64,000 bases of DNA. Origin: Gimesia fumaroli. GTDB lineage: Bacteria > Planctomycetota > Planctomycetia > Planctomycetales > Planctomycetaceae. The stretch is from assembly GCF_007754425.1 (NCBI RefSeq), contig NZ_CP037452.1, positions 3,881,164 through 3,945,163 on the forward strand, read 5' to 3'. Made by a program: the position numbers and the translations under genes. Of the stretch, positions 35,953-56,773 are shown piece by piece (positions within the stretch are counted from its first letter, which is position 1; each line of letters opens with the position of its first letter). A model generated the notes under the pieces. It was not told the DNA's origin, ran no database searches, and worked only from the letters and a program-made list of their open reading frames with translations.

Positions 35953-36914
35953 TAACGAACTCCCTGCTCTGTTAAATCTAAAAATGCCTGATTCAAGTGC
36001 TTTTTATCTCTTTGGAAAGATTCGATCGAGCCATCAAGTTCAATAATCTTCGACAAGAGATTTCCGGTGGACGTTAATGTTGCATCAAATGAAATCAATA
36101 ACTCTCGCGGTTTGTCAGTCATTCTGACGGACAAAATTCCCGGCTCATTGACAAGTGATTCCACAAGCAATTCGTTCACTTCAGATTCTAAGGTTACCTT
36201 ATAGCTGGGATGCTCCTGTTCGTGAGTCAAGAGGCCATCCATGGAACCACTATATTTGATTAGCCCGCGATCAATAATCGTGACGCTGTCACATAGTTCT
36301 GCTAACTCACTCAAAATATGGGAACTGATAAAAATGGTTTTCCCCATGCGTTTCAGCTCTTGGAGAATTTCCATCAATTCGATTCGTGCACGCGGGTCAA
36401 GCCCGGACGCTGGTTCATCCAGCAGTAACAAATCTGGATCGTTTACTAAAACGCGCGCTAAACTGACTCGTTGCTGCATTCCTCTGGAAAGACCACTGAT
36501 GAGCGAATCTTTACGTCCATCCATATCGGTTAATGTCAACACATCATTGATGACCTGATCGCGCTGTTCGACTCCCAGACCATAGGCGGCTCCAAAGAAA
36601 TCAAGATACTCAAATACCGTCATTTGTCTGTAGGTACTAAAATGGTCTGGCATAAAACCAATGCGTTTACGAATATCTTTGACCGCAGATCGGACATCAT
36701 TTCCAAATACTTCCACTTTGCCGCCCTGAGGTCGTAATAACGTACAGATGATTTTTAGTGTCGTTGTTTTCCCGGCACCATTGGGCCCCACAAACCCATG
36801 TAAGGATTGAGGCTGGACCTGGAAGCTGATCCCCTGAAGCGCCCGATGTCCTTTAAAGGAATGAGAAACATTTTGAATATCAATAACAGGTTGTTCAAAA
36901 ATTGGTTCAGTCAT
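35952..36914 (-). CDS. ABC transporter ATPase (GldA/NatA type)
   Basis: A 320-residue ABC ATPase of the ABC-2 exporter class. It has Walker A GPNGAGKTTT near residue 45, Q-loop sequence IGFMPDHFSTYRQMTVFEYLDFF, signature LSRGMQQR, Walker B LLLLDEPASGLDPRAR and ISSH. A C-terminal regulatory domain of about 80 residues follows. The Asp after the Q-loop (MPDHFS) is shared with the second ATPase at 40.7 kb; the two are paralogues. The ATG at 36914 overlaps the end of the upstream gene by 8 nt, so translation is likely coupled. A longer start at 36956 would reach well into that gene and is less likely. Confidence 0.9.
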   Translation of the reverse strand: MTEPIFEQPVIDIQNVSHSFKGHRALQGISFQVQPQSLHGFVGPNGAGKTTTLKIICTLLRPQGGKVEVFGNDVRSAVKDIRKRIGFMPDHFSTYRQMTVFEYLDFFGAAYGLGVEQRDQVINDVLTLTDMDGRKDSLISGLSRGMQQRVSLARVLVNDPDLLLLDEPASGLDPRARIELMEILQELKRMGKTIFISSHILSELAELCDSVTIIDRGLIKYSGSMDGLLTHEQEHPSYKVTLESEVNELLVESLVNEPGILSVRMTDKPRELLISFDATLTSTGNLLSKIIELDGSIESFQRDKKHLNQAFLDLTEQGVR

Positions 36915-38817: not shown

Positions 38818-40691
38818 GATTCTGAACTCAACAGAGATTGATTTCCTATTGAGACGCCGGGGGAGCGAGAAAGATCCACATCATCACTTCCCAGTCTACC
38901 AAGTTTCTCATCAATATGGTTGCGACATTGTGAACGAAAAAAAAGATAGCAGCCGCCATAGATAAAAGCGTTGACAAAGAGAGGAATCCATGCCGAACCA
39001 AATTCGTGAAACTCCGCAATTTCATTGACCACAATATATGATGCCGGGCTCAGAAATACGCCATACATAATTGAATCTTCATTAAATGATGGATCTAAGA
39101 TAAAGATGGGAAATGCGAGAATGAATGGCAGGATACACCAGATAATAATGATTCCTAATGCCGACAGGATGGCTTTTGTTTGTGATTTGATTTTCATACC
39201 AACCCAACAAAACAGATAGATTAACATTGGCAGATAAATGCCAATTGTCAGCAAGGATCCGATCAGGTACGGCAACCATTGAATCTGGTAGGGATTCCTG
39301 TTGTGAGGATTAATGCCCGCATAGACCCATTTCCACCAAGACTCAAACAAAACGATTGTTAACAGTGGGATCAATAGGACAAGGCACAGTCGCTTTACGC
39401 CGGAAATTTTTTGTTCAAGCAATTTAGTACCGGAAATCGGAGTCGTTAACAAAACATCCAGTGTTTCATGGGAACGCTCACCGGAAATCAGACTGGTGGC
39501 AGAAACAGCAAGGAATAAGACAGCAAGTCCCCAGACCAGCCACAGCATCATCACGGCACCAGGAACAACAGGTTCGGGATTCATCGTGGCAATTAACACG
39601 CATAGCAGGAGAACGGGGACTTCCAGAAAGACGAGAATACGAAACAGATAACGGAACGTCCCCAATGATTTTTTAGATGTCTCACGCCAGGCGATCGGGG
39701 CATAGTCAGGCAAACGAACCTGATCTTTGACGAGCACAACACCTCTTGTAACACGGTTATTATTAATCTTAGAAAACAGACGGTCCAGATTTTTAAATAC
39801 ATTTAGCAGGAAATTTCGTGCAGGTAAAAATGCACGTCGCACAAGGAAGAAGTGTGCTAAAGCCAGAAACAGAAACGTACTGAGAAGAATCGGGATACTG
39901 AAGATCAAAGCGCCAACGACAGTACCCATTCCACCACCAGCAAAGGATCCAAAACGGTCAAACCAGTAAGGACCAAAAAATAGAAAATTGAGCTCCCAGG
40001 TGCCTCGCGTTAAATAAGTATTCCAAAATGGAATCTCCTTTAATGTCTGACTGACCATCCGGATGAAGTCAGCGTAAAAGAACAGATTCAATTCATAGGC
40101 AATCGAAGGGCCAAATAACATCAAAAAGCCGAAAATATACGTCGCGATGAATGCAGCCACAGTTGTACGGAAGAAACTGGAACAAAAAACACCCAGTGCC
40201 GCGACTTGGAACATCGTGATTGTCAACATCCATAATCCATTAATGAACATTGCCGGTGAAAAACCACCTAGTGTATAAGCGAACGCCATAATGGGAAGTC
40301 CCAGCATCAGAAACGTCACCATGGTCACCAGTCGCCCCAGGTACTTTTCCAAGATAATCGTCGAAGGGCTTAATCGCGTTATCAGCAAAAGCCCCAGACT
40401 GTTCCGCTCTTTCTCCTGGGTGATTACGCCACAAGTAATCGCTGGCAGGAATAAATAGATCGCCGTGAATTGCAGATAAATCATGGCTTCGAATATCTGG
40501 CGACCGCGTCCGAGAATCGCCATCGGATTATTTCGAAGTCCTGACATCAAGTCAATGTAAATGAAACCGACGCAGCCTAGAAACAACAGTGCGTAGATCG
40601 TTCGTATGATATAAGTCCGTCGACGGTTTGCCATCTCTGTTAATTCTTTGGAGAGCAGAGGCAGGCTGAGTTGAAACTTTCTCCGTTTCAT
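38814..40691 (-). CDS. ABC-2 type exporter permease (GldF-like)
   Basis: A 625-residue permease with two sets of about six membrane helices separated by a cytoplasmic region (residues 290-340). Each half carries the ABC-2 amphipathic motif: CGVITQEKERNSLGLLLITRLSP and SLISGERSHETLDVLLTTPISG. It is thus a tandem-duplicated full-length permease, whereas most ABC-2 permeases have one such motif. It overlaps the upstream ATPase gene by 4 nt and the downstream partner gene by 4 nt. The three are clearly one translational unit. The exported substrate is unknown; lipid, polysaccharide or protein are all open. Confidence 0.87.
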   Translation of the reverse strand: MKRRKFQLSLPLLSKELTEMANRRRTYIIRTIYALLFLGCVGFIYIDLMSGLRNNPMAILGRGRQIFEAMIYLQFTAIYLFLPAITCGVITQEKERNSLGLLLITRLSPSTIILEKYLGRLVTMVTFLMLGLPIMAFAYTLGGFSPAMFINGLWMLTITMFQVAALGVFCSSFFRTTVAAFIATYIFGFLMLFGPSIAYELNLFFYADFIRMVSQTLKEIPFWNTYLTRGTWELNFLFFGPYWFDRFGSFAGGGMGTVVGALIFSIPILLSTFLFLALAHFFLVRRAFLPARNFLLNVFKNLDRLFSKINNNRVTRGVVLVKDQVRLPDYAPIAWRETSKKSLGTFRYLFRILVFLEVPVLLLCVLIATMNPEPVVPGAVMMLWLVWGLAVLFLAVSATSLISGERSHETLDVLLTTPISGTKLLEQKISGVKRLCLVLLIPLLTIVLFESWWKWVYAGINPHNRNPYQIQWLPYLIGSLLTIGIYLPMLIYLFCWVGMKIKSQTKAILSALGIIIIWCILPFILAFPIFILDPSFNEDSIMYGVFLSPASYIVVNEIAEFHEFGSAWIPLFVNAFIYGGCYLFFRSQCRNHIDEKLGRLGSDDVDLSRSPGVSIGNQSLLSSES

Positions 40692-41635
40692 GCCGTCTTC
40701 CCTTCCGTTAACTTCATAAACACAGTTTCCATATCCATCGCTTCTGCTTGAAACATGCGGATTTTTGCACCAGTCGCAGCGATTTGAGTGTGCAAGTCTT
40801 CCACCGCAAGCTGGTCTTCCAGCAACTGGATAGCCAGACGATCTGCCTGAACGTTTACCGATTTGACACCGTTCATGCTCTCAATTTTCTGACAAACGCC
40901 ATTCAGTTCGCCAACAATTTGTACATGAATAATCCGACTGAGTTCCAGTCGCTTGTAAATATGATCTAAGGAACCCTGGGTAACAAATTGTCCGGCTTCA
41001 ATGATTCCGATACTTGTACAGAGTTGAGACAGTTCATGCAGAATATGGCTTGAGATGATAATCGTCTTTCCCATCTCTTTGAGAGCCACTAATAACTCAC
41101 GGACTTCAATCCGGGCACGGGGGTCCAGTCCACTAGCAGGCTCATCCAGTAATAACAGGTCCGGGTCATGTAATAATACACGTGCCAACGCCAACCGCTG
41201 TTTCATACCACGCGATAAAGAGTCAACCGGCGCATCGATTTTCTCGGTTAAGTCAGTCAATTGCAGTACATCGTCAACGATGACTTTGCGTCGACTTTTA
41301 TTGATACGATACGCGGCTGCAAAAAAATGCAAGTATTCTCGTGCGGTCAGGTCTTCATAAACACCAAAGAAGTCTGGCATGTATCCAATCATTTCTCTGA
41401 TCAGATGCGGCGCCTTATTTACGGAAATTCCATTAATCTTGACCGAATCACATTCAAAGTCGCGTTGCAATGTTGCCAGAACTTTGATCGTTGAGGATTT
41501 TCCCGCGCCGTTCGGGCCGATGAAGCCGAAAACTTCCCCTTTAGGAATCGAAAAAGAGATGCCCTTAACGGCTTCATATTTTCCGTATCGTACCCACAAG
41601 TTTTTCACTTCCACCATGGGGGGCTGTGTATTCAT
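40688..41635 (-). CDS. ABC transporter ATPase (GldA/NatA type)
   Basis: A 315-residue ABC ATPase. It has Walker A GPNGAGKSST near residue 40, Q-loop segment IGYMPDFFGVYEDLTAREYLHFF, signature LSRGMKQR, Walker B LLLLDEPASGLDPRAR and ISSH. It is a paralogue of the ATPase at 36.0-36.9 kb, sharing the MPDxF motif and the C-terminal regulatory domain of about 90 residues. It works with the permease encoded directly downstream (ATGA overlap). The two ATPase genes are separated only by their own permease and partner genes, which suggests a local duplication of an exporter module. Confidence 0.92.
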   Translation of the reverse strand: MNTQPPMVEVKNLWVRYGKYEAVKGISFSIPKGEVFGFIGPNGAGKSSTIKVLATLQRDFECDSVKINGISVNKAPHLIREMIGYMPDFFGVYEDLTAREYLHFFAAAYRINKSRRKVIVDDVLQLTDLTEKIDAPVDSLSRGMKQRLALARVLLHDPDLLLLDEPASGLDPRARIEVRELLVALKEMGKTIIISSHILHELSQLCTSIGIIEAGQFVTQGSLDHIYKRLELSRIIHVQIVGELNGVCQKIESMNGVKSVNVQADRLAIQLLEDQLAVEDLHTQIAATGAKIRMFQAEAMDMETVFMKLTEGKTA

Positions 41636-43896: not shown

Positions 43897-45780
43897 TCAA
43901 GAAGGGATACCGGCGGGGCGGCGTTGGAAATACCACCACTCTATCAGAAGCAATAGAAATGCAATGAGCGCAAATTCGCTCCACAAGGGTTTGTCGCTAT
44001 CGATTTGTGCTTGAGCCGCCGTGACCGGTACTTCACTAAACTGTATTTCTTCCACTGAAACGAGAGAAGTTTCTAAAGGGCTTAATAAACTTACACTAAT
44101 TTCATCGGAATCGGCTCCTTCACCACTAATTACATAGTTGCCCACATGCAAAGCGGCGATTCCCGAAACCAGACCATTTTTATTACTTTCCGTACTCAAC
44201 CGTTTTCCATCAGGAGTTTTGATTTCGTATTTCTGTTCGGGAAGATATTCGACAGGGGGTAAAACGGGGGTCGCAGCTGCCTGTACTTCAGCGATTCCTG
44301 CTTCCTGCATTGTCAATTGAACCAAATTTGAAACCATAATCGGAAAACCAACACGGTATGGCATCGTTGATCGATCCGTATTGAACAGGAAATAAAATTC
44401 CAGATCCCCCGCATTCCGTTTTTGTAATAATAATGGTCCCCGACGACCGTGCACTAAGACTTCATATCCCGATTCTTCCAGATTTTCAACACCCGCATTC
44501 TCTACCCAGACCGGTTCTTCCGTGATCTGTACATCATTTAATTCAACATGTCTTAGGAATGAAGAACTACGATTCCAATCGACAACATCAGTCAGCTTAG
44601 TCTCGAGCGTAATGTATTTCTTTAAATCATCCGGAATAAAACCGACCCCCAGCTTCACAAGTGCCTGTTTCTCTAGATCCTTTTCAGAGGCAGAAATAAT
44701 CAAGTCATACTCGGGAGGGCCAACGGTTTCCCCTGCTTCTGGATATAGTTGCAGTTCTTCATTGTCGGCGAGTGCGTATCGATAGCTCGACAGATCTGGA
44801 TCAATAAACACAAGCAGAGAACGTGCCTGGGGAATTTTGAGAAAGGCGCGATTATCGGATACCAGGCTGTCAAATGATTCTGGTATCAAGACAGCCTCAA
44901 GAGTCGATGCCTTATCCGCACTAATTGAAAATTCCAGGCGTTGAGAGTCTCCCGTGCTTAAGACGATCTCTTCTTTCGCAACACTCTGTCCGTCCTGAAG
45001 CAATTCGACTGTGGCCGGGGTGTCTGAGTCACTGGAGTTCTCAACTCGAATAAACACATCCCAGTTTCCAGACTGATTCTTCCGTGCATTGAAAGAAGTA
45101 ATTCCAAGATTCGCGCCTGCTGAGGGCAACCGTTGGTAATTCAATTCAAATGGCAATTCAAAATTCACTTCTTTAGGAAAATTTCCATCCGAATAAAAAA
45201 GGACCGTCTTGATTGGGGCAGTTCGTGAAAGTGCCTGTGTCATCCGTAAAGCATCTTCCAGGTGACTGGGAACATCATCGACCGTCAAACCAGCCAATGA
45301 CTGTTTTAAGACACGCTGGTTATCAGTAAAGTCAGTTAATCGGCGGGCGGTCGAACTGACGGCGACCAGTGAAACACGCTGGTCCGGAAGTAGGTTTTCA
45401 ATTAATTCGGTGACACGCGCTTTGGCAAGCTCGAGACGTGTTTTCTTTGTTTCGGGATCGGTAGCGCCCATACTTGCAGAACAGTCGATCAAGATGGGTA
45501 AATACTCTGCACGCTCGGCTCCGCTTTGGATAAATGGCTGCATCAGAGAGAGCACTAAAAAAAGCAACAATAAAATTTGGAGCAATAGTAAAATACTGCG
45601 TTTAAATTTCTGGAAGGGAGAGTTCACACGTCGGTCATTGATGACTTGACTCCACAGAGCCAGCGAAGGAACTTGCTTGTGGGGGCGTTTTAACTTCAAA
45701 AAATAGAAAATAATCAAGGGCAGCAGCAATAGCAGATACCAGGCGCCTTGAATGGAATAAAAGCCAGGCCAGAAGTTCAT
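43897..45780 (-). CDS. BatA-like VWA membrane protein
   Basis: A 627-residue protein with the BatA/aerotolerance N-terminal region: two membrane helices (about 13-31 and 60-80) around LKRPHKQVPSLALW. A VWA domain follows, whose metal-adhesion site D99-C-S101-A-S103 (DCSASMGATDPE) is intact. A beta-rich region and a C-terminal membrane helix (PLWSEFALIAFLLLLIEWWYF) complete it. VWA proteins of this sort are partners of MoxR ATPases and hold metal-dependent protein contacts. The ATG at 45780 overlaps the DUF58 stop (ATGA), which fixes the start; a GTG three codons upstream is possible. Confidence 0.9.
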   Translation of the reverse strand: MNFWPGFYSIQGAWYLLLLLPLIIFYFLKLKRPHKQVPSLALWSQVINDRRVNSPFQKFKRSILLLLQILLLLFLVLSLMQPFIQSGAERAEYLPILIDCSASMGATDPETKKTRLELAKARVTELIENLLPDQRVSLVAVSSTARRLTDFTDNQRVLKQSLAGLTVDDVPSHLEDALRMTQALSRTAPIKTVLFYSDGNFPKEVNFELPFELNYQRLPSAGANLGITSFNARKNQSGNWDVFIRVENSSDSDTPATVELLQDGQSVAKEEIVLSTGDSQRLEFSISADKASTLEAVLIPESFDSLVSDNRAFLKIPQARSLLVFIDPDLSSYRYALADNEELQLYPEAGETVGPPEYDLIISASEKDLEKQALVKLGVGFIPDDLKKYITLETKLTDVVDWNRSSSFLRHVELNDVQITEEPVWVENAGVENLEESGYEVLVHGRRGPLLLQKRNAGDLEFYFLFNTDRSTMPYRVGFPIMVSNLVQLTMQEAGIAEVQAAATPVLPPVEYLPEQKYEIKTPDGKRLSTESNKNGLVSGIAALHVGNYVISGEGADSDEISVSLLSPLETSLVSVEEIQFSEVPVTAAQAQIDSDKPLWSEFALIAFLLLLIEWWYFQRRPAGIPS

Positions 45781-46682
45781 AAGACCCACCCCTTCCGCCT
45801 CAGCAGGTCAAAGAGAACATACTCCAGAGAATCTCCACTATTGGTGGTCAAAAAACGCCCGGATCGTTGGCGGCAAAGCATCGCCAGGTGTTCTTCCAGG
45901 AGCACCCGATGCTCGTGATAGAGCCCCAGCAAATCACCGGCAGATGAGATATCCAGGGTCTGGCCACTTTCGCTGTCAATCAGACGTAAATCGCCATTGA
46001 TCTCCGGGTTGATTTCAGAGGGACCTAATATTTGAACGCCAAACAGTTCCAGACCTGCGCTATACAGCATATTAAATGGACGCTGCAAATCGCCAAATGA
46101 CTCATAATCGGAAAGAACGATGGCAACCCCCCTTCCCCGATGCGTGCGCAAGACATCTTCCACAGCCAGTTCAATGGGAGAGTTGCCGCCTGCTTCGATT
46201 TGTGTCAGAAAATCAAACAGACGTTTCATACTGATTCGTCCCGTTGCTGGTGAGAATTTCTCAGGCCGACTTCCTTTTTGGTTGCAAACGTAGGCGCTGA
46301 CTTTTTCAAAATTCAACAGCCCCATAACGCCAAACGCGGCTGCTAGTTGTTTACAACGTAAAAACTTGTCTTCGTAATCCATGGATGAAGAAGCGTCAAG
46401 AATCAAAACAACATGCATTTCCTCTTCATGCTGATATTGTTTCATAAACGGTTTGTTTAAACGGGAGAAGATATTCCAGTCGATATACCGCACATCATCG
46501 CCGGGAACGTAGTTTCGATAATCTGAAAACTCGGTACTGGTCCCTCCCTTGCCGGAAAGATGTTCGCCGCGACTTCGATTTGTTAAACGACGTGTGGGGT
46601 TTAAACGCATTCTCTCCAAGATGGATAACGTTCTGTTATCAAAGAGCGACGTAAACTGGTTGGATTGAGTTCCCTGTGACAC
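45777..46682 (-). CDS. DUF58 protein with intact VWA-like metal site
   Basis: A 301-residue cytosolic DUF58 protein without membrane helices. The DUF58 motif is FSDYRNYVPGDDVRYIDWNIFSRLNKPFMKQY (shown in part: VPGDDVRYIDWN), followed by a VWA-like fold whose metal site D96-A-S98-S-S100 (DASSSM) is intact. This is the usual partner of the MoxR ATPase encoded 6 nt upstream. The start is GTG, with AAAAGGAA before it. Compared with the DUF58 protein at 11.5-12.9 kb it lacks the membrane anchor and is 170 residues shorter, so the two belong to different subfamilies. Confidence 0.93.
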   Translation of the reverse strand: MSQGTQSNQFTSLFDNRTLSILERMRLNPTRRLTNRSRGEHLSGKGGTSTEFSDYRNYVPGDDVRYIDWNIFSRLNKPFMKQYQHEEEMHVVLILDASSSMDYEDKFLRCKQLAAAFGVMGLLNFEKVSAYVCNQKGSRPEKFSPATGRISMKRLFDFLTQIEAGGNSPIELAVEDVLRTHRGRGVAIVLSDYESFGDLQRPFNMLYSAGLELFGVQILGPSEINPEINGDLRLIDSESGQTLDISSAGDLLGLYHEHRVLLEEHLAMLCRQRSGRFLTTNSGDSLEYVLFDLLRRKGWVL

Positions 46683-46688
46683 TGCCGT

Positions 46689-47705
46689 TTATTCCTTTTC
46701 GGGTAGTTCTTTGCAAATCTGTGCAATCAGGTCCGCGACAACAATATTTTCTGCCTGACCATCGTAATTCAGTAATACGCGATGCTGCAGAACTTCATTT
46801 GCAAAATAGCGAATATCTTCAAAGGCAACATGCGCGCGTCCTTCACTGAGTGCACGCACGCGCGCAGCTTTAACCAGTGATTGTGCAGCTCGCGGACTGG
46901 CCCCCCAATGCACAAAGCGACGGACTTCCTCCGTTGCAAAATCGGTTCCAGGATGAGTCGACAGCACCAGGCGTATCGCATAGTCGCGAATGGGTTCTAC
47001 GACAACGACTTTCTCCAGCACACTCCTTAATTCAAGGATTTGCTCACTGTTGAGCAGTTTTTTTAACTCCACGGGCTGTTTCAAAATCGTTTGTTGTACA
47101 ATTGTGTTGAGTTCATTACGATTGGGAAAAGGGACATTCACTTTGAACATAAAGCGGTCTAATTGTGCTTCGGGTAAGGGATAAGTGCCTTCCTGCTCAA
47201 TCGGGTTCTGAGTGGCCATCACAAAGAATGGCTGATCCAGTCGATACTGTGTCCCGCCGGCTGTAACCGTCCCTTCCTGCATTGTCTCCAGCAGTGCAGA
47301 TTGGGTTTTAGGAGAAGCGCGGTTGATTTCATCGGCCAGCAGTAATTGGGTGAAAATCGGGCCTTTGCGAAACTCAAACCGATATGTTCCCGTTTCGTCG
47401 GTGCTCATGATATTGGTCCCGATAATATCAGCCGGCATTAAGTCAGGCGTAAACTGAATTCGCTGAAAATGCAGGTCCAGCACTTTGGAGAGTGCTTTGA
47501 CGAGTTCCGTTTTGCCCAGACCGGGAACGCCTTCCAGCAAGACATTGCCGCCACAAAACAACGCGTAGAGCGTTGACTCAACAACACGCTCCTGTCCAAT
47601 GATCATTCGTGCGATTTCAGACCGCACTTCATTGAACACTTTTTTGAAATGGTCTGCTTCAGCCTGCAATACAGTCGGTTCTTCAGTTGTGTCTGGCTGG
47701 TTCAT
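46689..47705 (-). CDS. MoxR-family AAA+ ATPase
   Basis: A 338-residue MoxR AAA+ ATPase. The Walker A is GVPGLGKTE (residues 59-67), the Walker B LLLADEINRASPKTQSALLE near residue 122, and sensor-1-like MATQNPIEQEGTYPLPEAQLDRFMF follows. The C-terminal lid domain has WGASPRAAQSLVKAARVRAL. MoxR proteins act as chaperones that activate or assemble target complexes together with VWA proteins. Here the DUF58 gene, the BatA-like gene and the giant VWA gene all flank it. It is the only MoxR in the window and the likely engine of the array. Confidence 0.96.
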   Translation of the reverse strand: MNQPDTTEEPTVLQAEADHFKKVFNEVRSEIARMIIGQERVVESTLYALFCGGNVLLEGVPGLGKTELVKALSKVLDLHFQRIQFTPDLMPADIIGTNIMSTDETGTYRFEFRKGPIFTQLLLADEINRASPKTQSALLETMQEGTVTAGGTQYRLDQPFFVMATQNPIEQEGTYPLPEAQLDRFMFKVNVPFPNRNELNTIVQQTILKQPVELKKLLNSEQILELRSVLEKVVVVEPIRDYAIRLVLSTHPGTDFATEEVRRFVHWGASPRAAQSLVKAARVRALSEGRAHVAFEDIRYFANEVLQHRVLLNYDGQAENIVVADLIAQICKELPEKE

Positions 47706-47730: not shown

Positions 47731-50700
47731 CTATTGTTTTTCGTTGTCTGATTGTCGTTTTCGTTTGAGATCTAGTAAACGCCCGGTTGTTGACACGTTT
47801 TCAGGCGAATCAGTCGGTGGAGTTTTAGTCGAGGAATTTCCTGCGTCGGCAGGCTTCGTTTTTTCGGTTTGTTTTTGTTGGGACTGTCGCGAGGACTGCT
47901 GTTTCTGTTCTTGCAGTTTGGAAATCGTAGATTGGGGGTTTAGCTGGTTGGCAGTGGTGGAAGCCGTTCCTTTACGGTGATCCAATTCCTCGGTAACCCC
48001 CTGTTTCCGTTGCAGGAGCGCCCCCATTGTTGCCGTACTGGCTTGTTTGTCGGAGCCCAATCCAAACCAGCTTCGAATAACATACCAATCCAATTGTACG
48101 CGGCGTATTCCCACATCTAGTGGCACTAAGATCGCCAGTACGATCAATAACCAGTCAAATACCGGATTTGAACTTTGTTTGGGATCGCGGCGTCCGTAAA
48201 TTACTTTAGCTGCGTTCTCTGGATCAAGCCGTTGCCCTCCTGTTCGCTCTGCGATTTCTTCAAGAACAATCGGATTCGAACGAAAGCGGAGAAATTCTGG
48301 TGAATAGGGAACGATAAATCCGCCATTCGTATGATCTTCACGATCCCCTGCTTTTCCCACAGCCATTACCTGATAACGTCCCTTGCCCCAGAGAGGAATC
48401 GAAGCCTGATACCGACGTGGACTGACCTGTTTCAGCACAACAGTTTCTTCACGATCATGCGGTCCCGAGATTTTGGCAGCGACATTTAGGAACGATTCTT
48501 CCGGATGAAAATCCTCAACCATAATAGTGGCATTGTTACCAGAGGTATGGCTCCACATTTTCAAATGTTCCTGGGTTTGCACACGGGAGATCTTAATCAT
48601 TAACTGCTTGATGAATGCCTGGTAGTGATCCCAGTTCACCCAGTCAGCGCCCCAGTTTGGTGACAAATCAGAAGTAAATGCGGCCGTCGTTCCCAAGCCA
48701 TAGCGCCAGAAAGCAAGGACGGGGTCAATCTCACCTTCGGCTTCTTTCTTTTCAGGAGCATTTAAAACGCCTTCTGCCCGGGGTTTGATCGTAGCTAACA
48801 CGTAGCCATGTAACGGTGGTATTTCCTGAATCCCTTTGAGTATCGGGGAGATCATTCCTACCTCGGGAGTGATTGTCTCGTTTTGAATCATACTCCGTTT
48901 CAGGGTTTTTGATTCTTTAATGAAGATGGATGGTAATTGATTGGGGTCAGAAGGAAAATAATAACGCCCTCCCGTTGCCCCGGCGATTCCACGCATCGTC
49001 GAGATGTCACGTCCCCCATGGGGATAGATCGCAACCATGGATACACTGACTTTGTTATCCTGGAATTTTTTGATAAGCGCGGGAGATGGTGGCTGGGGAT
49101 CGCCGTCAGATATAATAATCATATGTTTTGTAGAAGCGTCACTTTTGATGAGTCCTTTTAAACCCAGTTCCATGGTATTTGCAAAACTAGGCATGTCCCC
49201 GATTTGTGCGCCATTGATCTTGGGGACCATTTTTTCATACTCATCGGCGGGAGTTAGTTCAAACAGCCATTTCTCGCCTCCCATGAAATCATAAATTAAA
49301 ACGCCGACTTCATCTTGGGCACCTAAAACTTTAATCGCCTGTTTTGTGATGCGTTTCCCCCACGTATTTCCTTCCGGAAACTCACATGTATGCAGAATAA
49401 TCGCCAGTGCACCTTTGGGAAGAACTTTCTTCTTGGTGATGTCCATTGTCACGGGCAGCGCGTCTTCGATTAAAGTGCGATGATATCCCCCAGGACCGTA
49501 ACTGTTCTCGCCGCCCACCATCATGAATCCGATGCCCTGATTAAAGATCGAATCATGGACGGCTTTTAACTGAACCACATTAAATGCATCAGCGGGAACA
49601 TTCACAAAAACGATTGCGTCGTATGGCATGAGCGATAGCGAATCGCTGGGAAACTCATAGGCAGAGATCGTTTCTACATTTCTCTCTCCTTCTCGGATCG
49701 CTTTCACCAGAGATTGCCAGTCTCGGTCATCCCCACCCGGATTAGTGACAACCAGAACCTTACCTTCACCTGCTACATAAATGTAGTTTAAAACGGTATT
49801 ATTTTCGCGGATCTGGTCATCATCCCGCTTTGTTTCAATTGTCGCTGAATATTCATAATAGCCGGCCTCTCTCAAGTAAATCGGCACCACATAACGATTC
49901 TTGCCTGCTTTGAACGAGACTTTTTCTTCATAAATCGGCTCACCATTTTCACGCAATACCAGCTTACCTGAACCATCTTGCAGAGATGAAAGCACAATAG
50001 CCGCTTCATAGTTTTCCCCCAGCTTGACGAACCGGGGAAGTTCGAGATTTTCCAGCCAGACCTCTTTGTCGTATTCATATTGGATCGGTAGAACATCAAC
50101 GGCGATATCCCGCGATTTGAGTTCTTCCAGAATTTGGGAAATAGATCCCTCAGTTTCCGTTCCATCACTGATTAAGACAATCCGCCCACGGTTCTCTTCC
50201 GGTAACATGGCAGCAGCCAGGGACAGCGTCTGTTGCAGGTTGGTTGCGTCACGATCAATTCGCGAATTTAAGGCTTCAAACGGAAAAGAAACACGAGGTG
50301 GAAGTTCGACTGCCGAATTCCTCCCGAAAACGACCAGCCCCGCTTCATCTGTCTGAGGCTTCTCCGTGACTGTCTTTGTGACAAATTCCAGAGCAGAGTC
50401 TACGGATGACTCGCCAATCGAATCAGAAAGATCCACGGCATAGACCACTGAGATGACATCGCGAACACGTACGGAGCGTGGTTCTGCGATCAACATCACA
50501 AACAGTCCCAGCATCACCAGGCGCGAAATCAGTGCAGCCAAGGCGCGGCCTTTACTCAAACCACCATATCCGGCAACAGAAAGCCACCAGACCCAGACGG
50601 AAAAGAGAATCAGACTAAATGCCCAGGGGCGGGCAAATAATAAAATATTGGACAATTCAAGACTGATACAAACGACGGCATACAGAACCAGAAAAAAGAT

Positions 50701-50778
50701 CAAAGGCATCGCACGTCGCCAGGTTACTGCGATGCGCGGTTGGGGAACTAATTGATGATAGAGTTCTTTGATCTTCAT
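47731..50778 (-). CDS. Giant VWA membrane protein with tandem VWA-like and GATase-like domains
   Basis: A 1015-residue protein. Three membrane helices (about residues 25-98) precede a VWA domain with an intact metal site D116-L-S118-D-S120. A beta region and a GATase-like segment follow (YDAIVFVNVP, IFNQGIGFMMVGGENSYGPGGYHRTL). A second VWA-like domain (about residues 450-590, MIIISDGDPQPPSP) has no intact DxSxS motif. A beta domain, a membrane helix near residue 870 and a Q/T/S/K-rich tail end the protein. The layout is that of a scaffold spanning the inner membrane with its sensing parts outside. It lies 25 nt before moxR and overlaps the ATPase-NHL gene by 4 nt. Confidence 0.87.
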   Translation of the reverse strand: MKIKELYHQLVPQPRIAVTWRRAMPLIFFLVLYAVVCISLELSNILLFARPWAFSLILFSVWVWWLSVAGYGGLSKGRALAALISRLVMLGLFVMLIAEPRSVRVRDVISVVYAVDLSDSIGESSVDSALEFVTKTVTEKPQTDEAGLVVFGRNSAVELPPRVSFPFEALNSRIDRDATNLQQTLSLAAAMLPEENRGRIVLISDGTETEGSISQILEELKSRDIAVDVLPIQYEYDKEVWLENLELPRFVKLGENYEAAIVLSSLQDGSGKLVLRENGEPIYEEKVSFKAGKNRYVVPIYLREAGYYEYSATIETKRDDDQIRENNTVLNYIYVAGEGKVLVVTNPGGDDRDWQSLVKAIREGERNVETISAYEFPSDSLSLMPYDAIVFVNVPADAFNVVQLKAVHDSIFNQGIGFMMVGGENSYGPGGYHRTLIEDALPVTMDITKKKVLPKGALAIILHTCEFPEGNTWGKRITKQAIKVLGAQDEVGVLIYDFMGGEKWLFELTPADEYEKMVPKINGAQIGDMPSFANTMELGLKGLIKSDASTKHMIIISDGDPQPPSPALIKKFQDNKVSVSMVAIYPHGGRDISTMRGIAGATGGRYYFPSDPNQLPSIFIKESKTLKRSMIQNETITPEVGMISPILKGIQEIPPLHGYVLATIKPRAEGVLNAPEKKEAEGEIDPVLAFWRYGLGTTAAFTSDLSPNWGADWVNWDHYQAFIKQLMIKISRVQTQEHLKMWSHTSGNNATIMVEDFHPEESFLNVAAKISGPHDREETVVLKQVSPRRYQASIPLWGKGRYQVMAVGKAGDREDHTNGGFIVPYSPEFLRFRSNPIVLEEIAERTGGQRLDPENAAKVIYGRRDPKQSSNPVFDWLLIVLAILVPLDVGIRRVQLDWYVIRSWFGLGSDKQASTATMGALLQRKQGVTEELDHRKGTASTTANQLNPQSTISKLQEQKQQSSRQSQQKQTEKTKPADAGNSSTKTPPTDSPENVSTTGRLLDLKRKRQSDNEKQ

Positions 50779-52637
50779 GGTATCAATTTTACGATTAAAC
50801 GATTGCCCGTGTCAGCCACGATCACTTGATCTTTCGAATTTACGGTAAGTCCCCAGGGAGTCAAAAACTCCCCCTGCTCTGTTCCTGTCTTCCCAAATCT
50901 ACCTAAGACTTCACCCGCTAAATTGGTTTTGGTGACCCGCCCTAATCCATATTCCACGATATAGAGTTCTTCATTATTTCGATCGATGGCAATGTCATAA
51001 GGATAATAGAGTGGAATCCCCCCGGTTTTCGTGCCTAAAATTTCTAAAAACGTTCCCTCATCGGAAAATACCTGAATACGATTATTGTCCGCATCAGCAA
51101 CATAGATTTTTCCATGATGCCAGACCATTCCCGCGGGTCTTTGGAATTCTCCTGGTTTATTCCCCACCTTGCCAAATTGCAGTATAAATTCACCCTGATC
51201 GGAAAATTTCTGGATTCGATTATTTTCACCAAATTCGCAAACGTAAATATTTCCTGCAGGATCCTGTACAACGGAAACAGGAAAAATAAATTGTCCCGGT
51301 TTCAGTCCATATTCTCCAAGTATTTTTTGCACTTTTCCCTGTTGATCAAAAAAAACGACGCGGTGGTAATGTGTGTCAGCAACGGCGATCTGACCATTTT
51401 TCAAAAAACAGACCCCTTCCGGCTTCCCCACATCTGATTCAGGCATCTTCCATTGCCTGATTAATTCATTATTCGAATCATAAACCAGCACACGACCAGC
51501 ATTGTCGAGTACATACAGTTCGTCGTTCGGTCCGACATTCACGCTACGTGGCGCTGGGATCATGATTCCCTCAGAGGGAACAGGCCACTGCTTTATCTGA
51601 GAAAATACTAGTTCCGGCGCATTGTCTGAAAGACATCCGGAACCAAACACCAGGCATAAAAACAGCATCAACAAGCGAATCGAAATACGATCTCCCTTTT
51701 TTAATACTGATCTAACCGGGCGGTGATATAATGACTGAGTGACCTGGTGTTCCTGATGCGAAACGATAACTTCCTCAATCGATCCACTAAATGCAACCGA
51801 TTGCACTTCCCACGAACTCTGTTCGACTTTGTCTAAAGCGAGTTGTTCAGCTCGAATTAGTTTGATGTCACAATTATGTTCTTTCTCTGGGAAAGTATCA
51901 CTTATCGGAGTTAGATCGTTGACTGGTCCTAAATAGGTGGCAACCTGATACGATGGAGGCGCATAATACAAATCGTTTACTTCGCCAGAATAAATTACCT
52001 GACCCTGGTCGAGGCAGATGACATGTTCAGCTTCCCGCAACACCAGATCGGGTTGATGTGTCGAAAACACAAGCGATGTGTTGTTTTTCTGGCAAAAGTC
52101 ACAAATGGTTTTCCAGTAGAACGGCCAATGCGTCTGATCTACGTGTATTAATGGCTCATCCATTACTAAGATACCCGCTTTACTGGCCAGAGCCCGGGCG
52201 ACCGCTAATCGTGAGGCTTCTCCCTGTGAAATTTGTCCTGGATATTGGTCTCGAACAGGCGATAAGCCAAATGCTGTGAGTAGTTCTTCCACAGCATCCT
52301 GCTCTGATTCAACATCCGGATAAACCAGCTTCAAGTGGCCTTGAACCGTATATTGCGGCCACAATCCAAGATTGTGGGGGACCCAGAACAGTTCCAGACC
52401 GGATCCAGGTGGGGAACATGCCTGTGTGCGAGTAATTGTTCCCTTATCGGGAGACTCATAGTTTACCAGCAGGTTCAATAATGAAGTTTTTCCTGCACCG
52501 GAATATCCCATAATTGCTGTGACACCTTGTGGGATTACAAGATCAACTTCAGCCAAGCGGACATCGGACGCACTCTTCATACTGACGCTTTTCAGTGACC
52601 ACAACAAGGCTTCAGATTGTAAGGTTTCAACAGTCAT
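50775..52637 (-). CDS. ABC importer ATPase fused to a membrane helix and NHL propeller
   Basis: A 620-residue fusion. Residues 1-225 are an ABC ATPase: Walker A GYSGAGKTS (44-52), signature ISQGEASR (about 136), Walker B GILVMDEP (about 155-162) and the switch histidine H194. Residues 250-322 resemble a TOBE domain (KLIRAEQLALDKVE, KKGDRISIRL), as in FbpC/PotA-like ATPases. Residues 323-335 (LMLFLCLVFGSGC) form a membrane helix or internal lipoprotein-like signal. Residues 345-620 hold six NHL blades (for example IYVADADNNRIQVFSDEGTF). The reading frame is continuous. An in-frame ATG at 51668 (M324) could start a separate propeller lipoprotein. The permease gene ends 7 nt upstream, so it belongs to that importer. 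Confidence 0.85.
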   Translation of the reverse strand: MTVETLQSEALLWSLKSVSMKSASDVRLAEVDLVIPQGVTAIMGYSGAGKTSLLNLLVNYESPDKGTITRTQACSPPGSGLELFWVPHNLGLWPQYTVQGHLKLVYPDVESEQDAVEELLTAFGLSPVRDQYPGQISQGEASRLAVARALASKAGILVMDEPLIHVDQTHWPFYWKTICDFCQKNNTSLVFSTHQPDLVLREAEHVICLDQGQVIYSGEVNDLYYAPPSYQVATYLGPVNDLTPISDTFPEKEHNCDIKLIRAEQLALDKVEQSSWEVQSVAFSGSIEEVIVSHQEHQVTQSLYHRPVRSVLKKGDRISIRLLMLFLCLVFGSGCLSDNAPELVFSQIKQWPVPSEGIMIPAPRSVNVGPNDELYVLDNAGRVLVYDSNNELIRQWKMPESDVGKPEGVCFLKNGQIAVADTHYHRVVFFDQQGKVQKILGEYGLKPGQFIFPVSVVQDPAGNIYVCEFGENNRIQKFSDQGEFILQFGKVGNKPGEFQRPAGMVWHHGKIYVADADNNRIQVFSDEGTFLEILGTKTGGIPLYYPYDIAIDRNNEELYIVEYGLGRVTKTNLAGEVLGRFGKTGTEQGEFLTPWGLTVNSKDQVIVADTGNRLIVKLIP

Positions 52638-52644
52638 TAAATGA

Positions 52645-54108
52645 TTAAGTCTCAGCCAGACCAGAACGGTTTGAACTTAAGATCCATAGTTTTTTCACAA
52701 TTGGTAAAAGCAACAGACTGACGCAAACGGGTATGCATAAGCTGAGCAGCGTTATTGCAGACAGGATTGAATTTTGTCCATAATGCATCAGATTATAAAG
52801 GCGCACGGCAGATGGTTGTGCCTGATTTGGCGCCAAGATCGAACTGAGAGTAACATTCCAATAGGCCCAGAAAGCCAGAACAACAACGGCCCAATATTGT
52901 ATTCTCCCATTCACTGACCAGCGCAATTGGTCGCCCTTCAATGCCTGTACTTTTCCTTTTGACTGACTCAACAATTTCGTCAGGTAGAAGGCACTGTTCT
53001 TTGATTGTGTCTGCAACACGAGTTTCAGAAAAACAGCTCTAGGAAGTAAAAAAAGGACTAATGCAATGAAAAGCGCTAAAGGAGTATCATACAACCAGTA
53101 GCCGTAGGTTGTTAAAAAGACGGAAGCGATCAAAATGGCCAGAGTTAATGCCCCGCAAAGACCAGGCAGACAAAATATAAAACCCGGTACTCTGATCCGT
53201 AACGTCTGTTTTCGGGCAAAGAAAAACGCAGCCAACCCCCAAGCGGCAATTCCAGAAGAGATCCCATACAAGAGCCCCCAGGCGGACTCCTGAATGGTTC
53301 CCTGCAATTGCAGTTGATTTTGCAACAGACTACTGAGAGCAAGTAGGCTGCCCCAACTAATGAAGGCGAACGGTACCAGTCCGATCATAAAAAATGCTAC
53401 AAGTAGATATCCCCAAGACAAGATTGTGGAAACGCGTGCAATGTCCCTGGTTTGATCTCGTTGATTAAGAGTCGGTTGCTTTTTGAGTTGCGACAGCACG
53501 AAAGCAACTCCGGCAATCAAAAGCAATTCGATTAGAAGCGGTCCGGTAATAAATGACAGCGTTTTGATCACAGGAACTCCGCCTGCCTGGGCATCAAAGA
53601 TCCAGACTGTCCATGTATCCCGGTAAAGTAACGATGCCATCTCGAATTCCTGAAACGCCAACAGAAATAACAGCGCCCCGATGGGGAATCCTCGAAACAG
53701 AGTCTTCCACAGAAAAAAACTCCAGAGTGATCGTATCTTCGTAATCTGCGCCGCAGGCGAGCGGACCGATTTTCTGATAAAATCAGCCTCTGATGAAATC
53801 GCAGAGGGAGCAGAGAGAGTAACACAGATCATTCCCACAGGAACCACTTTCAACAATACCAGTCCCGAATAAATTAACTCGATTAAAAAGGGATAGTGCA
53901 CCAGTTTCAATGAAATCAGCCACCAGGCATATCCCACAATCAGTTCAGGCACCAATAAGGGGGCCAGGATCAATGTGAATAACAAAACTGAACGACGTGA
54001 ATAGCCTGTTTCAACCAGCCGAGACAAATGTCTGGATAAAATGACTCCGATTATTGAAATGCACAAACTGCGTAACACTGTCACGCCACAAGCTGTGGCC
54101 AGGCTCAT
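52645..54108 (-). CDS. ABC importer permease, ferric-iron/thiamine type
   Basis: A 487-residue membrane protein with about 12 hydrophobic segments in two halves, as in FbpB/ThiP permeases, which are single-chain double-unit permeases of 500 or so residues. The halves begin near ILAPLLVPELIVGYAWWLISLKL and LRIRVPGFIFCLPGLCGALTLAI (given in part). Canonical EAA-loop sequences are hard to see, so the coupling loops seem divergent. Its gene overlaps the binding-protein gene by 4 nt and is followed 7 nt later by the ATPase-NHL gene. Assignment relies on length, topology and neighbours. Confidence 0.8.
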   Translation of the reverse strand: MSLATACGVTVLRSLCISIIGVILSRHLSRLVETGYSRRSVLLFTLILAPLLVPELIVGYAWWLISLKLVHYPFLIELIYSGLVLLKVVPVGMICVTLSAPSAISSEADFIRKSVRSPAAQITKIRSLWSFFLWKTLFRGFPIGALLFLLAFQEFEMASLLYRDTWTVWIFDAQAGGVPVIKTLSFITGPLLIELLLIAGVAFVLSQLKKQPTLNQRDQTRDIARVSTILSWGYLLVAFFMIGLVPFAFISWGSLLALSSLLQNQLQLQGTIQESAWGLLYGISSGIAAWGLAAFFFARKQTLRIRVPGFIFCLPGLCGALTLAILIASVFLTTYGYWLYDTPLALFIALVLFLLPRAVFLKLVLQTQSKNSAFYLTKLLSQSKGKVQALKGDQLRWSVNGRIQYWAVVVLAFWAYWNVTLSSILAPNQAQPSAVRLYNLMHYGQNSILSAITLLSLCIPVCVSLLLLPIVKKLWILSSNRSGLAET

Positions 54109-55148
54109 TTCAGATACTCCGATTTAAGCCAGGCCAGCGTTTCTTCCCGCTGCTTTACCAGATTTGTTAAAGGATATGCTTTCTCGACATATGAACGATA
54201 CTGTTTCACTGCTTCAGGGACCAGGTCCCAATCCACAGACCCTAATGGGATTTGACGCGATTGTGATTGAGCCAGTTTGATTTCTACTTCTTCCGAAAGC
54301 AGATAATCCATTAGAGTTTCTGCCTGTGTTCGTTTTTTGGTTCCTTTGATGATGGCAACACTGTTGGGGATTAATATCACTTTTTCGTTCACTGTGATCG
54401 GCAATGCGGCGACCGGCTTTGCCTCATCGACAGCCACAAAATAGTCATCCGTGTCTGTAAATCCAAGCTCGCAAGTACCACTGGCAACCAGATTTTTAAC
54501 ACTCGCATTCCCAGAGGTCTCTATTATTCCTCGTTCTTGTAACGATTGATGCCAAGCCTTCAATCGCTCCAGCCCCCACGCATCACAGAGAACGGTATAG
54601 TGAGTCAAGGTTGTGCCATAGAGCGGCTTGGCAATCGCAACATGATCAAGAGGACCTGATAATATCTGCTCAACATTCTCAGGTGTGTTTTTGATTTTAT
54701 CTGAGTTGGTGATATAAACTCGCAGCCTGGCCGCAAAGCCAGTCCAATAACCATCCGGATCTTTAAACTCATCTGGAATCCTTTGATAACCATCGCCTTG
54801 GTATGGATCCAGAAGTCCCTGCTCTTTAAGAGCAGCTGTACCTAATGTCTGGTTATTCCAGAAGACATCACAACGTGGATGGTCCTGCTCCCGGATAATC
54901 AAGTTCGTCAAGCCCAGTGACTTGGTGGCTTCTGTATCAAAACGTGGATCTACTTTGATCCCCGTTTTCTGTTCAAAGGCTTTCAATATTTCTTCAGAAA
55001 ATACGGCATCATGAGCGCAGTAGACGACAAGCGCATCACTTTGTTGCTGATAAAAAAAGACCAATCCGACAGCCACAACGACAACCACTTCTACGATTGC
55101 CAGAATGATCCATCCGGAAAAAAGCCCTCCCCCTGATTTTTGATTCAT
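54105..55148 (-). CDS. Ferric-iron/thiamine-type ABC substrate-binding protein
   Basis: A 347-residue extracytoplasmic binding protein with an uncleaved-looking N-terminal membrane helix (about residues 13-33, WIILAIVEVVVVVAVGLVFF) and an FbpA/AfuA-like type-II binding fold. Matches are LVVYCAHDAVFSEEILKAFEQ, TGIKVDPRFDTEATKSLGL, CDVFWNNQTLGTAALKEQGLL and CELGFTDTDDYFVAVDE. FbpA proteins bind ferric iron; related ones bind thiamine, phosphonate or sulfate. The tyrosine pair of FbpA is not obvious, so the ligand is open. It begins the importer part of the array and overlaps the coiled-coil gene upstream by 4 nt. Confidence 0.87.
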   Translation of the reverse strand: MNQKSGGGLFSGWIILAIVEVVVVVAVGLVFFYQQQSDALVVYCAHDAVFSEEILKAFEQKTGIKVDPRFDTEATKSLGLTNLIIREQDHPRCDVFWNNQTLGTAALKEQGLLDPYQGDGYQRIPDEFKDPDGYWTGFAARLRVYITNSDKIKNTPENVEQILSGPLDHVAIAKPLYGTTLTHYTVLCDAWGLERLKAWHQSLQERGIIETSGNASVKNLVASGTCELGFTDTDDYFVAVDEAKPVAALPITVNEKVILIPNSVAIIKGTKKRTQAETLMDYLLSEEVEIKLAQSQSRQIPLGSVDWDLVPEAVKQYRSYVEKAYPLTNLVKQREETLAWLKSEYLK

Positions 55149-56773
55149 TTCTTAGTTGCGTTTTCTTCAGATTTGTTCTCAAGTGAATTGAAATACTTCT
55201 TGATTCCATCATGATATCCAGGCGGAATCTGTTCCTGCATAATTGCTTCACTCATCCCCTGTTTGAGGTCGGTGAATAATTTGTTGTAGTTTTTTTGTGC
55301 TTCTCCCCGGTCACTGAGCCCCTTGGTTTTGAAAGACAACAGGACCTTGCCGGCAGTGATTGCCGACTTTGACTTTTCGGTTTTAAAGCCTGTGTCAACA
55401 GTGTCGTCTTCGTCTACTTTACCACCTTTCCCTTGTCCTTCTCCCCCCGTCCCTTCACCAGGCATGTTACCCATCATTTGTGCATAGAGTTCTTCATAAT
55501 CCTCAAGACTCATGCAGTTTTCGCAAGCTTCGCCATCAAGCCCTGATTTATCATTTATTTTTTTGGCCATCTGAAGCACTTTCAAGGCTTCTTCAAGCTT
55601 TTTCATATCTTTGGCTGATTGAGCAATCTCTTTCAACTCCATTTTGGCGAGGTCCATAGATTGCATCGCTTCCTTGAATGCTTCATCAGGCTTGATGCCT
55701 TTTGACTGGGCCATTTGCATTTGTTTCATAGCTCGTTTTAATGCTGCTGCCATCGCTTTCGAATTAGTTTGTTCGCGTGCGAAGGATTCCATTTCCTTCA
55801 TTTTTTTCTGAATTTCATTTTTCAACTGTTCACGCTTTACGGGATCGGTCTCTTTGGTTAATCGCTGAAGCTGTTCTTTCAATTCATCCATTTCTTTCAT
55901 GAGCGACTGTGTTGAACCTTCCTGCAGTTCTTTGCTCCACTTTTTCATTCCTTCGTTTTTAGACATCCCGCCAAATTTTTGTGCCTGATTTGCTTTCATC
56001 ATCAGGCTTTTCATTTTTTCTTCGGCAATCTTTCGCCATTTCCCACCCAGTGATTTTTGATGACCGGCGAGTGTTTTTGTATTCTTCTGTTTTTTTCCAG
56101 GCGTCATTTTTCGGAAGTCTGACTTCAGGTTTTCAACAGCCATTTTGACATCTTTTGATTCTTCATCACTTTCACCGGTATCTTTATTTTTCAGTTCCGC
56201 CAGCCTGGCTTTGGTTGCTTTTTTAGTACTCTGAAACTCTTCTGCTTTTTCCTGTTCAATTTCTGCCGCCTGAACTTCGCCAAACGGGTCGAATTGAGGA
56301 GTATACTCCAAGACCAAAAACAACAGGAATGCCCCGGCGCAAGAGGTCGCTAATTTCTTTTGCCATTGAAAACTGATAATAGCCGATGGTTGAATCTTTT
56401 CCGCCTTCGTTTCTGCATCCTGCACGACGAGAGGTTTATAATTCCCTACCGCTTGCTCCAGCATCGTCACGGTTAAAAACAGGTCTTTCGTACCCTGGTT
56501 TTGATCAATTAGGCGTGCCGCCTGTTCTTTTTCCGGCTTCCGAAACAGAAAAAATGACAATATCAGCGTGCCTCCCACAACAACCCCCAAGGATTCGGGA
56601 ATAAACCACTCTCTCAGATAGCCTGATAATCGACTGAAAAGGAGCAACGCTAAGTACGCCGTCATGACAGACACAAAGGAAATAAAGAGCGTCCTCCCCC
56701 ACAAAGCCAGTGACAGACGGCGTTGAACACGTTCTATTAACTGTGCCGATTTTTTCATGTTTTCCATTTTCAT
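55145..56773 (-). CDS. Membrane coiled-coil protein of unknown function
   Basis: A 542-residue protein with three hydrophobic segments (about residues 25-47, 57-77 and 148-165) followed by a long, highly charged helical region (residues 180-400) rich in lysine, glutamate, glutamine and methionine, which should form coiled coil. A short CENC motif at about residue 420 and a glycine-rich acidic stretch (GEGTGGEGQGKGGK) lead to a final helical part. The N-terminal ATG overlaps the EF-hand gene stop (ATGA), with GAGGGGA as ribosome site. I do not recognise the family. It may be a structural link between envelope proteins of the array. Confidence 0.75.
   Translation of the reverse strand: MKMENMKKSAQLIERVQRRLSLALWGRTLFISFVSVMTAYLALLLFSRLSGYLREWFIPESLGVVVGGTLILSFFLFRKPEKEQAARLIDQNQGTKDLFLTVTMLEQAVGNYKPLVVQDAETKAEKIQPSAIISFQWQKKLATSCAGAFLLFLVLEYTPQFDPFGEVQAAEIEQEKAEEFQSTKKATKARLAELKNKDTGESDEESKDVKMAVENLKSDFRKMTPGKKQKNTKTLAGHQKSLGGKWRKIAEEKMKSLMMKANQAQKFGGMSKNEGMKKWSKELQEGSTQSLMKEMDELKEQLQRLTKETDPVKREQLKNEIQKKMKEMESFAREQTNSKAMAAALKRAMKQMQMAQSKGIKPDEAFKEAMQSMDLAKMELKEIAQSAKDMKKLEEALKVLQMAKKINDKSGLDGEACENCMSLEDYEELYAQMMGNMPGEGTGGEGQGKGGKVDEDDTVDTGFKTEKSKSAITAGKVLLSFKTKGLSDRGEAQKNYNKLFTDLKQGMSEAIMQEQIPPGYHDGIKKYFNSLENKSEENATKK

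Follow-up and report, generated by a model that had tools for sequence, protein, structure and literature searches.

Does an open reading frame (ORF) that joins an ATP-binding cassette (ABC) importer ATPase to an NHL beta-propeller yield one protein or two? The question is raised by a 620-residue frame of Gimesia fumaroli (family Planctomycetaceae). The frame lies in a stretch of 64,000 nucleotides, referred to here as the window (contig NZ_CP037452.1, positions 3,881,164 to 3,945,163). The original prediction, made from the sequence of the window, described this frame as an ATPase fused through a membrane helix to an extracytoplasmic propeller that might act as a sensor on the importer. It named an internal start at Met324 as the alternative. 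The fusion is genuine, conserved and present in two phyla. Judged from sequence, the joint between the two halves resembles an internal lipoprotein signal, and once made, the chain is probably cut to give two proteins.

A frame shared by an ABC ATPase and an NHL propeller

The fused frame starts with ATG and continues for 620 codons with no internal stop (Table 1). Pfam places ABC_tran at residues 35–163 (1.8e-21, whole protein) and matches NHL (PF01436) at 1.5e-29. The Pfam TOBE model has no match in the fused frame. A profile built from 22 sequences of the ATPase half aligns with FbpC, an ATPase of an Fe(3+) importer (3fvq, profile positions 22–311), and with the iron ABC ATPase 9j4r (profile positions 10–316), in both cases reaching into the C-terminal domain. 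Because these alignments reach the C-terminal domains of both proteins, the label TOBE-like is supported for this region, the limits of which were drawn by eye on alignments. The propeller profile matches the NHL domains of TRIM71, Thin, Brat and Mycobacterium tuberculosis PknD among PDB chains. These matches bear out the single open frame with ABC ATPase, TOBE-like and NHL parts that had been described.

Residue conservation was assessed in an alignment of 55 fused proteins from the Planctomycetota and Verrucomicrobiota. The Walker A, signature, Walker B and H-loop motifs are invariant or nearly so. These motifs and the C-terminal domain align with those of importer ATPases of the FbpC/PotA/WtpC type, which combine ABC_tran with TOBE. 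Unlike these ATPases, the fused protein runs on into a secreted domain, and its Q-loop glutamine is variable (Gln in 16 of 55). In the window the glutamine is replaced by His88 (52,374–52,376), a position verified on an alignment to 1z47. The aligned sequences without Gln have Pro (17), Ala (8), His (7), Gly (4) or Ser (3). A variable Q-loop glutamine is unusual for an ABC ATPase in which the remaining catalytic motifs are kept. By profile, the ATPase half is a relative of TOBE-type importer ATPases that departs from them at the Q-loop, and it is a predicted ATPase. Within the propeller, Asp421, Thr422, His423 and Arg426 are invariant, and Tyr424 and His425 are present in at least 90% of the sequences. 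The motif formed by these residues is possibly a ligand or metal site.

The fused frame is present in 16 of 17 Gimesia genomes, the window's own included. The exception (G016) is a genome of 74% completeness in 590 contigs. Across the family, 123 of 170 genomes contain a match and 121 loci were classified; fragments in two genomes (G106 and G185) are unclassified. The propeller is fused to the ATPase in 74 loci, lies beside a separate ATPase gene in 37 and has no adjoining ATPase gene in 10. Of the 40 family genera with a match (58 genera searched), 26 contain one or more fused loci. The 74 fused loci include one that ends at a contig edge (L071) and one that has an in-frame stop well away from the joint (L020). 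The latter is tallied as separate in the start-codon counts, whose 47 separate genes include it, and as fused in the tree and later counts. In L020 (genome G036; L188 among the named records), a single in-frame TAA interrupts the ATPase part close to the signature motif, and the locus is either a pseudogene or contains a draft error.

The joint is thus conserved in the genus and in 74 of the 121 family loci, the point on which the original prediction proposed to check the fusion. The prediction had also named relatives with two separate genes at this spot as evidence against a fusion. These exist as 37 family loci outside the genus and are found at none of the 16 genus loci. Because the same joint is present in 16 of 17 genus genomes, the fusion is beyond chance. 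A sequencing error or local artefact is rejected, as the same joint appears across many assemblies.

Fused loci are also found outside the family. In a sample of the phylum, 51 of 392 genomes matched at 1e-50, and four matches outside the family (G387, G328, G516 and G215) look fused, judged by frame length and match start. Among named genomes, the best 80 of 309 matches comprise 60 fused loci, 13 adjacent loci and 7 other loci; as the best matches to a fused query, they are biased towards fused loci, and many of these records overlap the family genomes. Eight fused loci among these best 80 of 309 are verrucomicrobial (Chthoniobacter flavus Ellin428, Prosthecobacter and others) and four are phycisphaeral. 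The Verrucomicrobiota do not form one clade in the tree of fused proteins (L220 branches apart), a tree in which ancient inheritance and gene transfer are not separable.

The joint before Cys335

Residues 313–335 of the fused protein read KKGDRISIRL LMLFLCLVFGSG C. The hydrophobic stretch occupies residues 322–334 and ends with Gly334, immediately before Cys335. The TOBE-like domain ends at ISIRL in relatives, and the hydrophobic segment follows directly, without a linker. Cys335 is invariant (55 of 55) and Gly334 is present in 51 of the 55 aligned proteins. Columns 321–333 and 336–340 are variable, with entropies of 1.6–3.5 bits.

All 121 classified family loci, fused or separate, have a lipobox-like cysteine. 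The search for this cysteine was heuristic and made one wrong pick (L133), in which a later cysteine was taken and the true LAGC is visible upstream. This locus is omitted from the start-codon, charge-free-stretch and hydrophobicity counts. The charge-free stretch before the cysteine is 13 residues long in all 16 genus loci and has a median of 13 (12–18) in the 58 fused family loci outside the genus. The corresponding medians for separate propeller genes are 14 (9–26) in 36 genes beside an ATPase gene and 16 (12–20) in 10 genes without one. Among charged residues and His, the one nearest to the segment on its N-terminal side is R, K or H in 74 of 74 fused family loci. This pattern makes a cytoplasmic ATPase and an external propeller the likely topology, in agreement with the original prediction.

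In loci with separate genes, it is the propeller that carries the hydrophobic segment, near the start of its frame. None of the 37 separate neighbouring ATPases has a hydrophobic tail. Their last 60 residues reach at most 1.82 on the Kyte-Doolittle scale (12-residue window), compared with at least 2.21 before the cysteine in 74 of 74 fused loci. Four of the 37 (L089, L109, L134 and L141) end before the C-terminal domain. Because such a tail is missing from all 37 ATPases that neighbour separate propellers, the segment appears to be the propeller's own signal. In the fused frame this putative lipoprotein signal is not N-terminal but internal. A hydrophobic segment is present at residues 322–334, close to the predicted 323–335, but its reading as an ordinary membrane helix is less well supported, given the invariant Cys335, the conserved Gly334 and the association of the segment with separate propellers.

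From one chain to one protein or two

The explanation that we favour, with moderate confidence, is that one translated chain carries an internal lipoprotein signal that is lipidated by Lgt and cut by LspA, with the ATPase left inside and a propeller lipoprotein outside. The ATPase and the TOBE-like domain would fold in the cytoplasm, and GDRISIR, the final strand of the TOBE-like domain, would double as the basic n-region of the lipoprotein signal peptide LLMLFLCLVFGSG. This signal would send the propeller through Sec. Cys335 would then be lipidated by Lgt, and LspA would cut before it. Two products are predicted: an importer ATPase that ends in a short hydrophobic tail, and an NHL propeller that is anchored as a lipoprotein outside the cytoplasm. 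The two proteins of one operon would thus be made in a 1:1 ratio from a single start. The tail of the ATPase may be trimmed by a membrane protease or may be retained as an anchor. Genes for Lgt and LspA are present in the genome. M50 protease genes are also present, and their products are candidates for action on the tail. Cutting is favoured because Gly-Cys is conserved, because the segment accompanies the propeller when the genes are separate and because LspA and Lgt are present. From these features we infer translocation, lipidation and cleavage of the fused chain.

Several observations weigh against cutting by LspA. It is unusual for a type II signal to lie 320 residues into a chain, and cutting would leave a hydrophobic tail on the ATPase that has to be trimmed or accommodated. 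The fused segments are also hydrophobic enough for a stable helix (above 1.6 in a 19-residue window in 73 of 74); hydrophobicity alone does not decide between a cut and a tethered chain. The lipobox is the next point. The GSGC of the window misses the strict pattern [LVI][ASTVI][GAS]C at -3 and fits a looser, PROSITE-like rule. Within the genus, position -3 is off-consensus (C 6, Q 4, G 2, A 2, N 1, S 1; n = 16), and the looser rule holds in only 5 of 16 genus loci and 40 of 58 other fused family loci. It holds in 10 of 12 verrucomicrobial and phycisphaeral fused loci, in 30 of 36 separate propellers beside an ATPase and in 9 of 10 without one. Neither Q nor N occurs at -3 in 22 lipoprotein-like N-termini sampled from 464 kb of the same genome. 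Finally, the search for starts with a Shine-Dalgarno (SD)-like motif described below has low power; only 11 of 47 separate propeller genes have a start with such a motif.

The off-consensus residue at -3 is softened by two observations. C, G, S or A occupies this position in 9 of the 22 N-termini of the same genome. In addition, the propeller lipoprotein Ycf48 of Synechocystis is lipidated despite a non-canonical C at -3 (PMC8038367), a precedent that helps for C only. Ycf48 differs from the fused protein in having an ordinary N-terminal signal and a seven-bladed propeller of another family.

A neutral origin of the fusion is conceivable, though we consider it doubtful. The fusion would have arisen by loss of a stop codon and would be tolerated since the signal still works, with no gain from the single chain. 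Such an origin is compatible with cutting by LspA, so the confidences expressed here are not shares of one whole. The propeller gene has no importer genes nearby in any of eight stretches from other families of the class (L041–L048), and a vWA relative is present in seven of the eight; in five it lies directly downstream, and in L041 and L042 it is about 3 kb away. On a quick NHL tree the locus changes between fused and separate at least nine times, with four changes forced by starred branches; many branches of this tree are weak, and it gives changes of state and not their direction. Both results fit a neutral fusion. The presence of a fused locus in 26 of 40 matching family genera and in a second phylum argues against it.

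A chain that stays whole ranks second to cutting into two proteins, and we regard it as unlikely. The motor subunit would then span the membrane and carry an extracytoplasmic propeller, as PknD does, and this propeller would sense or bind substrate at the importer. PknD consists of a cytosolic enzyme, a hydrophobic segment and an external NHL propeller, and is not known to have a lipobox. The match of the propeller profile to its NHL domain favours the comparison, although PknD is a kinase and the fused protein an ABC ATPase. A whole chain also fits the presence of the fusion in two phyla, the 19-residue hydrophobicity and the off-consensus lipobox in most of the genus. A further point in its favour is that three of eight verrucomicrobial fused loci (L192, L200 and L220) have a permease match and no vWA match within about 4 kb downstream. 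An invariant cysteine exactly at the end of a signal-like segment argues against a simple tether, and the 37 family loci with separate genes indicate that tethering is not required. The segment also follows the last TOBE strand without a linker. The C-terminal domains of MalK-type importers point away from the membrane, which would make a linker-free tether awkward and is also the reason why a tail left by cutting would need trimming or accommodation. The fusion itself is real and conserved, but cleavage of the chain is more likely than a sensor that stays permanently tethered.

It is improbable that two genes share the frame and that the propeller is translated from its own start, at Met324 or at a nearby TTG or GTG. 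Codon 324 is ATG in 5 of 16 genus members (L001–L005), and a product begun there would have just 11 residues before the cysteine, none of them basic. The region 14–40 codons before the cysteine contains ATG in 14 of 73 fused loci, compared with 25.7% of 584 control windows inside the ATPase. ATG is found in this region in 34 of 47 separate propeller genes (24 of 37 beside an ATPase, L020 included, and 10 of 10 without one). Some ATG, GTG or TTG is present in 58 of 73 fused loci, and a start with an SD-like motif in 9. These frequencies would allow internal starts but equal those of the control windows (79% and 11.6%). No such codon exists in 15 of the 73 fused loci, the window among them. The 60 named fused loci include 8 with no start codon in this region, 16 with ATG and 8 with a start and an SD-like motif. 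Synonymous divergence (pS) within the genus is 0.692 at the joint, compared with 0.66–0.76 elsewhere, and the ratio of nonsynonymous to synonymous divergence (pN/pS) is 0.41. Because pS is ordinary and pN/pS is 0.41, the joint is read as protein with no hidden nucleotide signal. There is no conserved internal start. Re-initiation at Met324, which the original prediction had offered as the alternative, is disfavoured, as this codon is not conserved, starts are not enriched and synonymous sites are unconstrained. Translation through the joint is the likely route to the propeller.

The window has a TTA AAA AAG run directly before the joint (51,696–51,704). Conserved -1 slippage is set aside, as this run is found in none of the other 23 fused loci compared.

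Gene neighbourhood, related systems and implications

The fused gene lies among genes for an importer and for a vWA-MoxR cluster (Table 1). Upstream, the permease gene follows after a short gap, and the permease and solute-binding genes overlap slightly. The permease partner has no Pfam match at 0.01 and no NCBIfam match at 0.001. The nearest NCBIfam models of the solute-binding protein are 2-aminoethylphosphonate binding proteins, far below the cut-off. This protein has an N-terminal hydrophobic segment in which no lipobox was seen by eye, so anchoring by a helix is possible. The vWA protein next to the fused gene also matches GATase1_like (4.3e-14) and has no propeller match at E 0.01. Past the BatA-like gene, at 35,952–41,635, two more ORFs resemble ABC ATPases and flank a multi-span membrane protein, as judged by eye.

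Table 1. Features of the fused frame and its neighbours, in window coordinates
Feature	Coordinates	Strand	Basis or remark
Fused ORF, 620 aa	50775..52637	-	ABC ATPase, TOBE-like domain, predicted internal lipoprotein signal and NHL propeller
ABC ATPase domain, residues 12-245	51903..52604	-	Walker A GYSGAGKT, signature LSQGE, Walker B D160-E161, H-loop H194
TOBE-like C-terminal domain, residues 246-322	51672..51902	-	Last residues GDRISIRL; profile alignment to 3fvq and 9j4r
Putative internal lipoprotein signal peptide, residues 313-334	51636..51701	-	Basic stretch, 13 charge-free residues, lipobox; overlaps the TOBE-like end
Cys335	51633..51635	-	Predicted lipidated residue 1 of the mature propeller lipoprotein; invariant 55/55
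NHL beta-propeller, residues 336-620	50778..51632	-	Conserved DTHYHR motif (421-426)
Permease partner, 487 aa	52645..54108	-	Named from hydrophobic sequence and position
Solute-binding protein	54105..55148	-	SBP_bac_8, 2.1e-14
DUF4175-like protein	55145..56773	-	Upstream of the importer genes; below Pfam cut-off
vWA / GATase1-like protein	47731..50778	-	4-base overlap with the fused gene
MoxR AAA ATPase	46689..47705	-	AAA_3 6.3e-63; PF20030 7.8e-11
DUF58 protein	45777..46682	-	
BatA-like vWA protein	43897..45789	-	

A vWA relative comes after the fused gene in 71 of the 72 fused family loci that extend 1 kb or more past the frame. Of the 31 fused family loci with 3.5 kb or more ahead of the frame, 26 have a permease or binding-protein match there. 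Such a match occurs upstream of 14 of 33 separate-gene loci beside an ATPase and of none of 7 without one; these searches used Gimesia queries and may miss diverged permeases. Because of these counts and those from the other families and the Verrucomicrobiota, the propeller is linked to the importer and to the vWA neighbours, and either link can be lost. From linkage alone, we infer that the propeller may serve this importer and, separately, the vWA-MoxR cluster.

Ternary systems of MoxR, vWA and beta-propeller proteins, with their genes together and the propeller fused to vWA, are described in planctomycetes, verrucomicrobia and others (PMC7159879). The window shares MoxR, vWA and propeller genes with these systems, and its MoxR protein matches PF20030, the model for the MoxR proteins of such systems. 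In contrast to the ternary systems, the propeller is fused to an ABC ATPase and not to vWA, and the MoxR protein matches far better as AAA_3. Membership in these systems is rejected, as the vWA protein of the window has no propeller match.

Bacterial NHL propeller lipoproteins consist of a lipobox-like signal followed by an NHL propeller, as do the separate family relatives; the fused protein differs in that the signal lies about 320 residues into a longer chain. The cytochrome b/c1 precursor FbcH of Bradyrhizobium is reportedly a single chain that is cut at an internal signal by a signal peptidase to give two subunits, an account that our literature search did not recover. There the enzyme is said to be signal peptidase I and the first half a membrane protein with several spans, whereas the fused protein has a putative type II signal after a soluble ATPase. 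Searches of the open-access PMC literature listed no paper that reports an ABC ATPase joined to an NHL propeller or a type II signal inside a chain.

Type II signal peptides are generally regarded as N-terminal, and signal predictors generally examine the N-terminus alone. If the favoured explanation is true, the fusion would offer a natural test: can Lgt and LspA process a signal that comes after a folded cytosolic domain of 320 residues? A fusion of a cytosolic domain to a secreted domain need not mean a tethered protein. More tentatively, the frame may encode a polyprotein that is conserved in two phyla and processed by signal peptidase II. Such a polyprotein would supply a motor and a surface propeller in a 1:1 ratio and leave the spent signal as a tail that anchors the ATPase at the membrane. 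A conserved internal type II signal would be an added way to obtain two proteins, in two compartments, from one bacterial frame.

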